A stretch of DNA of 64,000 bases, taken from Anaerolineae bacterium (GTDB lineage Bacteria > Chloroflexota > Anaerolineae > Promineifilales > Promineifilaceae). Shown piece after piece: positions 22,912-24,313 of this stretch. Each line of letters opens with the position of its first letter. Position 1 is the first letter of the stretch. The translations under genes and the position numbers were made by a program. The notes under the pieces were generated by a model. That model saw only the letters and a list, made by a program, of their open reading frames with translations, did not search any database and was not told the origin of the DNA. The DNA lies in assembly GCA_019637635.1 (NCBI GenBank), contig JAHBVI010000005.1:1-64000 (forward strand), in the 5' to 3' direction.

Positions 22912-23643
22912 TCAATTTGCTAATTTCTCCAACACCAGCAAATGGGAGATGCCCAGGACGGCGAAGGGGGTTTTTTCGGCGGCGTAGAGGCCGTTTTTGA
23001 TCGTTTTGCCCAGGCGGGGCAGGCGGTACTCGATATTGTCGTAGCCGCCGAAGATGCGAGAGTGGTGAATGATTTTGACCGGCAGGCCGTCAAATAGTTT
23101 GAGCAGGCTGCTTTTGGTGTAGGTGCGCACGTGGGGAGCCAGCCGGTTGCGCAGCGGGTTGGGCAGGTAGTTGACCAAGGGGATATTGCCGAATTTGTAC
23201 TGCCCGCGCCAGTAGATGCCGTGTTGTTCCACCGGGTACCAGCGGTTGGGGCAGAAGATGAGGACACGGCCGTGACCCTTCACCACCCGCACCATTTCCA
23301 CCGCCGCCTGCCGGTCGTCGGTCACATGCTCAATCACCTCATTGCTGAACACAAAATCGAACGAGGCGTCGGCAAACGGCAGCTTTTCCCCGGCGGCTTG
23401 CACAATGCCACAGGCGGTGGGCAGCGCCTGCACCGCCCGGTCATGCTCAATTTCCAGGCCAAACCGGTGGGCGGTATACGGGGCAAAATGGTGGAGATAC
23501 GTACCCAGGCCGCAACCATTATCCAGAATAATGGCTCCGTCCAGGTCAATCCACTGCCGGATCATCGCCAGCCGCCGCTCCTGCCCGGAACGCCAGACGT
23601 AACCCGGTTCGCCACGCTGCGCTGCCTTGTCCGAATGGCTCAT
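22912..23643 (-). CDS. Class I SAM-dependent methyltransferase
   Basis: The SAM-binding core is visible: motif I ILDNGCGLGTYLHHF, acidic residue after strand 2 (FGLEIEHD), motif III-like GEKLPFADASFDFVFSNEVIEHV, and the later VVKGHGRVLIFCPN. At 243 residues it is a Methyltransf_11 type. The C-terminal part (PVEQHGIYWRGQYKFGN and onwards) is like that of methyltransferases acting near glycosyltransferases, but the substrate cannot be told. No ribosome site is visible because a repeat array lies directly upstream of the ATG. Confidence 0.82.
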   Translation of the reverse strand: MSHSDKAAQRGEPGYVWRSGQERRLAMIRQWIDLDGAIILDNGCGLGTYLHHFAPYTAHRFGLEIEHDRAVQALPTACGIVQAAGEKLPFADASFDFVFSNEVIEHVTDDRQAAVEMVRVVKGHGRVLIFCPNRWYPVEQHGIYWRGQYKFGNIPLVNYLPNPLRNRLAPHVRTYTKSSLLKLFDGLPVKIIHHSRIFGGYDNIEYRLPRLGKTIKNGLYAAEKTPFAVLGISHLLVLEKLAN

Positions 23644-23644
23644 G

Positions 23645-23702
23645 TGGTAATCGGTAATCGGTAATCGGTAATCGGTTGACCGATTACCGATTACCGATTA
23701 CC
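23645..23702. repeat. Inverted array of GGTAATC units
   Basis: GGTAATC occurs four times in a row (about 23646-23674), then a TTG centre, then three GATTACC units to 23702. The right arm encodes the last residues (VIGNR) and the TAA stop of the uracil-DNA glycosylase gene, while the left arm begins 2 bases before the methyltransferase start codon. Confidence 0.95.
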
Positions 23703-24313
23703 TCATCATACTTCCGCCGCACTTCCTGGATGTCTTGCCAGGTGAGGGCCTTGGGGCTGCCGGGGGTACGCACCGGGTTACGCAGCAGGTAGGAGGGGTG
23801 GAAGATGGGCATGACGGCCCGGCCCTGCCATTCAAACCACTGCCCCCGCAGCTTGGTAATCCCCGTCTGCCCCAAAATAGACTGGGTGGCTACATTACCC
23901 GTCAGCAGCATAATCACCGGGTCCACCAGCCGGATAATTTCCAGCACATATGGCTTGTACGCCTCAATTTCGTCAGTGGTCGGTTTGCGAAAATTGGCCC
24001 CATCCTCCCCCGGCGGCATCCGAAACACGGAATTGGTGATAAACACATCCTGCTCCGGGTCAAACTGTACCGCCTGCAAAATTTGATCCAGCAGTTGCCC
24101 GGCCCGCCCCACAAACGGTTTGCCCACCTTGTTTTCTTCCGGCCCCGGCGCTTCACCCACAATCATCAACTTGGCTTTGGGATTACCGCGATAGATGACC
24201 ACATTCGTACCGGCGTTTGCCAGCGGGTCATCCGTCATCTGCATCATCTTTTGCACCAATTCATCCAGCGATGTGTTATAAGTGGGACGCTTTTCAAACA
24301 AACCAGGCTGCAT
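23684..24313 (-). CDS. Family-4-like uracil-DNA glycosylase lacking all Fe-S cysteines
   Basis: The fold signature is clear: motif [25 protein letters not shown] (residues 49-72), [11 protein letters not shown] (91-101), [13 protein letters not shown], and the motif B loop [10 protein letters not shown] (171-180). Family 4 enzymes hold a 4Fe-4S cluster with four Cys: two in a CxxC near the N-terminus, one in NVVKCRPP and one in EI.aCrPYL. Here these positions are [16 protein letters not shown] and EIEAYKPYV, and the 209-residue protein has no Cys at all. It should still remove uracil from DNA if the fold is stable without the cluster. AGGAGG precedes the ATG. The C-terminus is encoded by a GGTAATC array. 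Confidence 0.88.

Follow-up and report, generated by a model that had tools for sequence, protein, structure and literature searches.

Family-4 uracil-DNA glycosylases (UDGs; UdgA), of which structures have been solved from T. thermophilus (TthUDG; 1ui0), T. maritima (1vk2) and S. tokodaii (4zbx), combine a common fold and the motifs GE(A/G)PG and HP(A/S)YLLRNP with active-site Glu, Phe, Asn and His residues and four cysteines that hold a [4Fe–4S] cluster. The cluster has been described as a loop stabiliser, and Cys-to-Ser mutants of the P. furiosus and A. fulgidus enzymes lost only ~40% of dU removal (PMC5295032), a mild effect that makes a working cluster-free enzyme plausible. It has also been proposed that clusters of repair enzymes, those of family 4 among them, detect damage through DNA charge transport (review PMC9266487).

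Metal sites are known to disappear from other DNA glycosylases. Clusterless MutY homologues (Trasvina-Arenas et al. 2016, FEBS J, as cited in PMC5295032 and PMC11078426) are likewise a natural case of [4Fe–4S] ligand loss, in the unrelated HhH fold, and the zincless finger of NEIL1 (PMC9266487) is a metal-supported element, here a zinc hairpin in another superfamily, that has outlived its ligands. UdgX of M. smegmatis (6ail), a family-4 derivative of similar fold, keeps its cluster and carries GEQPG and KRRIH. For a natural cluster-free family-4 UDG, our full-text literature search, outside which most subscription papers lie, found no report. Here we describe a candidate for such an enzyme, encoded within a 64,000-nucleotide stretch of Chloroflexota DNA (the window, meaning the whole stretch analysed).

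Family assignment

A UDG homologue of 209 residues is encoded on the minus strand at positions 23684–24313, as delimited by its open reading frame and identified by PF03167, TIGR00758, its match to 1ui0 and its fold relative to 1ui1. The Pfam UDG model PF03167 matches it with an E value of 1.9e-31, the NCBIfam family-4 model TIGR00758 scores it at 133.4 bits, above the cut-off of 125.3, and the nearest solved structure is the T. thermophilus family-4 enzyme 1ui0 (E 1e-49; ~50% identity to TthUDG). Its AlphaFold model is confident (pLDDT 92.4), also around the former cluster site, and superimposes on TthUDG 1ui1 over 186 residues at 1.2 Å (Z 30.1), as expected for the family-4 fold. Family-4 motif A, GE(A/G)PG, appears as GEAPG at residues 53–57 (24143–24157, minus strand) and motif B, HP(A/S)xxLR, as HPSYLLRNP at residues 172–180 (23774–23800, minus strand). 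An earlier note on this DNA had read the gene as a family-4 UDG with both catalytic motifs intact and without any cysteine; its coordinates, strand and length are exact, the motifs are where it placed them and the translation contains 0 Cys.

Other assignments fit less well. The archaeal equivalog model NF040953 gives 121 against a cut-off of 250. UdgX, although similar in fold (Z ~25), is ruled out by GEAPG, by the lack of a KRRIH R-loop and by a TIGR03914 score of 115.7 bits versus a cut-off of 189.95; family 5 (UdgB), whose motifs are defined as GLAPA and HPSPLN (PMC10359453), is ruled out by the absence of both. What the protein lacks is the defining four-cysteine cluster site of family 4, its place being taken by M26, D29, R98 and Y119. 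Because that site was looked for and is missing, we classify the protein, by its sequence, as a putative cluster-free derivative of family 4 rather than an ordinary member.

Fixed replacement of the cluster ligands

Ligand positions were assigned by alignment to 1ui0, where the cysteines lie in CTAC, KCR and ICT. Met26 (codon 24236–24238) occupies the place of ligand 1 in the CxxC pair and Asp29 (24227–24229) that of ligand 2; Arg98 (24020–24022) replaces ligand 3, KCRPP having become FRMPP, and Tyr119 (23957–23959) replaces ligand 4, all codons being on the minus strand. The claim that all four Fe–S ligands have been substituted is thus borne out residue by residue. The complete absence of cysteine is in itself weak evidence, as 0 Cys in 209 residues has a probability of ~0.16 at the cysteine frequency of the window (0.89%); the fixed replacement of four ligands exceeds chance.

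That fixation became apparent in a survey of 59 related genomes and 396 genomes of the class, which placed orthologues of 54–98% identity in four families of the class: f1, to which the host belongs, f23, f26 and f121. All 61 distinct orthologues read [M/L/W]-D-R-[Y/F] at the ligand sites (MDRY in 41, LDRY in 16, LDRF in 3, WDRY in 1), with Asp29 and Arg98 each in 61/61 and position 119 being Tyr in 58/61 and Phe in 3/61. The earlier note had proposed looking for the same change in relatives, and there it is. The 61-sequence set was chosen by its D–R pair; the corresponding clade as defined by the tree, of 45 rows, consists of exactly the 45 D–R rows and no others, so the invariance of the pair is not a selection effect. 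Roughly half of the orthologues do have stray cysteines, scattered over positions other than the ligand sites (41, 143, 39 and 19) and none of them conserved, and 'no cysteine at all' is therefore incidental, the trait being 'no ligands'. Loss of the cluster ligands is a property of the lineage rather than a quirk of one metagenome-assembled genome (MAG).

With Asp, Tyr and Met as ligands, the site might still hold a cofactor, be it a different metal or a cluster shared between subunits. The invariance of Asp29 and near-invariance of Tyr119 would fit this, as would the CCDC, CCHC or CCSC sets of some Chloroflexota family-4 UDGs, in which iron may be coordinated by Asp or His. Against this, the Arg98 that invariably takes the place of ligand 3 would coordinate a metal very poorly, position 1 varies among Met, Leu and Trp, and no conserved cysteine is left; we consider such binding very improbable, and infer that the window UDG carries no metal.

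In this group (group 1), the residue following ligand 3 is mostly Met or Leu, Arg being confined to basal members; in A. fulgidus UDG, the Arg at that position reportedly helps to contact DNA, so its replacement counts against an unaltered function. Basal members have a short RRPPNNR loop, and the insert of 4–5 residues in the ligand 3–4 loop, a further departure from family-4 enzymes besides MDRY in place of the four cysteines, is confined to derived members, which places the ligand loss before the insert.

Active site and selection

The catalytic roles of active-site residues we take from what is known of TthUDG: Glu54 within motif A sits in the catalytic pocket, Asn94 (24032–24034, minus strand) is the uracil-recognition Asn of the family, and His172 is the catalytic His of the second motif. 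E54, E60, N94, H172, R178 and N179 are kept in 61/61 distinct orthologues and F67 in 59/61. The gene is under purifying selection, with pairwise dN/dS among orthologues of 0.03–0.10 in the closest pairs and a median of ~0.15; values of 0.4–0.5 in pairs with one sequence (L145) are read as affected by saturation. A decaying gene or an assembly artefact might have been suspected, the host MAG having an estimated contamination of 8%, but this is refuted by the strength of that selection and by the recurrence of the replacements in dozens of independent assemblies, among them one of a single contig (G063) and one of three contigs (G028), leaving it a negligible probability.

Copy number and Fe–S context

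Among the host-family genomes examined, none holds a four-cysteine family-4 UDG, so the cysteine-free protein, where present, is usually the only family-4 enzyme. One genome of the family (G014) has both kinds of cysteine-free gene described here and another (G009) has only the second kind. In f23, some genomes have the cysteine-free gene alone and others, judged by scores to a native query, apparently also a native four-cysteine gene; there, the cysteine-free enzyme is not always the sole one.

The earlier note had held that a second, cysteine-containing copy, together with inactivity of the present one, would refute its reading. No cysteine-bearing family-4 copy was found in the host genome, where the only other candidate is a distant PF03167 paralogue, C237 (L002, 1441–2157; G000:C237), with four cysteines. 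Its motifs GQAPG and HPSG (HPSGASLWPN) and its score of 60 bits, where the family-4 cut-off is 125, place it outside family 4 and rule it out as a spare enzyme of that kind. Short matches resembling this paralogue occur in most relatives, and it exceeds the cut-off of no NCBIfam UDG model.

These observations bear on whether the protein has taken on another role, namely binding uracil or AP sites or excising a base other than uracil, for which the cluster would be dispensable. UdgX shows that the chemistry of a family-4 derivative can change (PMC10359453), cysteine-free and four-cysteine copies apparently occur together in some genomes, and the conserved catalytic residues would fit uracil binding equally well. 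Yet the known family-4 active-site positions are kept in nearly all of the 61 sequences, neither of the UdgX hallmarks, GEQPG and KRRIH, is present and, in the host family, the gene is the sole family-4 gene where present, bar the one genome with a second cysteine-free copy. We regard a changed role as unlikely, and favour retained UDG function.

The host has not abandoned Fe–S clusters in general. Its EndoIII and MutY keep C-X6-C-X2-C-X5-C, the latter in contrast to the clusterless MutY homologues, and SufB/D are present, which makes the cluster loss specific to the UDG.

Phylogeny and independent losses

In a tree of 101 sequences, from which L053 (VACC) and L091 were left out because they look like mis-called N-termini, the group-1 clade that includes the window protein (support 100/99) is sister to cyanobacterial family-4 UDGs (100/97), such as those of Gloeomargarita (L043) and Laspinema (L046), which share 52–60% identity with it and have their four cysteines intact. 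It lies far from the native Chloroflexota family-4 UDGs, which have HPAAALH and are mostly CCCC. The placement suggests that the ancestral group-1 gene was acquired from a cyanobacterium-like donor; a donor already free of cysteines is ruled out among the cyanobacterial sequences read, all ~20 of which are CCCC. Among phage and plasmid records, none reaches 60% identity to the window UDG; among the matches listed, the top plasmid records, which are cyanobacterial, have 39–43% and the top phage records ≤38%.

A second cysteine-free clade (L068, L069, L083, L084 and L087–L089; 100/100) lies inside the native Chloroflexota family-4 UDGs and reads L/A-S-D-Y at the ligand sites. Its members come from three families of the class, namely from genomes G014 (L068), G009 (L069), G057 (L083 and L084, with L086), G395 (L087), G224 (L088) and G254 (L089), and have the motif HPAVALY or HPAAVFY.

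Parsimony counts two ligand losses. A single ancient cysteine-free lineage would account for the similar replacements in both groups (hydrophobic-x-x-[D/S]-P-L, with Tyr at site 4), and the AU test against one clade (p = 0.024) is not overwhelming, with long branches in some group-2 rows. Group 1, however, falls by the UDGs of cyanobacteria and Thermus and group 2 by native Chloroflexota enzymes, the branch dividing them has 100/100 support, joining them in one clade costs even the best tree 76 log units, and the two groups remain separate splits when the ligand stretches are removed. A single origin is accordingly improbable: the two groups arose independently, through at least two losses. 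The trait thus goes beyond what the earlier note had described, spanning families and having arisen at least twice.

Native Chloroflexota family-4 UDGs in which the third ligand alone has changed, to CCDC (L097, L099), CCHC (L092, L093, L094, L098, L102, L113) or CCSC (L100, L105, L106, L108, L110, L111), suggest that ligand loss can proceed stepwise through ligand 3; these sets may hold the cluster in a different way or be stages on the path to its loss. A UdgX-like sequence (L146/L179; G145:C4:58695–59348) with 0 Cys and no KRRIH was treated apart from the main groups, and its relatives L180 and L184 keep, among the ligands, only the KCR cysteine. That branch is possibly a third cluster loss.

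We give even odds to the broader proposition that the family-4 cluster has been lost repeatedly within one phylum, in two clear clades and perhaps a UdgX-like third, each converging on a hydrophobic residue, Asp or Ser, a charged residue and Tyr. If true, this would mean that a replacement for a structural cluster, made of protein alone, has been reached independently in hosts whose other glycosylases are still supplied with clusters, and would provide a natural control for the hypothesis that repair-enzyme clusters act in DNA charge signalling.

Proposed mechanism and significance

Our preferred reading, to which we assign a probability of roughly 80%, is that the window gene encodes a functional UDG descended from [4Fe–4S] family-4 enzymes that has permanently lost the cluster, with replacement side-chain packing in its stead. 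The earlier note had suggested a natural cluster-free form, and clade-wide fixation, an intact active site, purifying selection and a confidently predicted fold all favour it. In family 4, the cluster would serve only to brace the N-terminal helix against the DNA-touching ligand 3–4 loop, catalysis taking place elsewhere through Glu, Asn, Phe and His. Side chains of the four substituted residues may fill the cluster cavity and take over this bracing, Met/Leu26 and Tyr/Phe119 as a hydrophobic fill and Asp29 with Arg98 as a probable salt bridge, while uracil flipping and glycosidic-bond cleavage would proceed as in other family-4 enzymes.

A UDG lineage without the cluster, in a host whose EndoIII and MutY motifs are retained, constitutes a natural test of structural versus signalling roles of the cluster. 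It may also offer biotechnology a family-4 UDG scaffold that needs no cofactor and is stable to oxygen.

Genomic neighbourhood

The UDG gene adjoins a Methyltransf_11 gene (22912–23643, minus strand), an arrangement kept through the host family, in most of its genomes and down to ~50% UDG identity. The pairing was not seen in other families, and the neighbour is not needed to explain the cluster loss. Tandem short copies of ggtaatc type (23645–23703 in the window) surround the 3′ end of the gene; as the repeat spans the gene end, the last residues of the UDG (VIGNR) are read from it.
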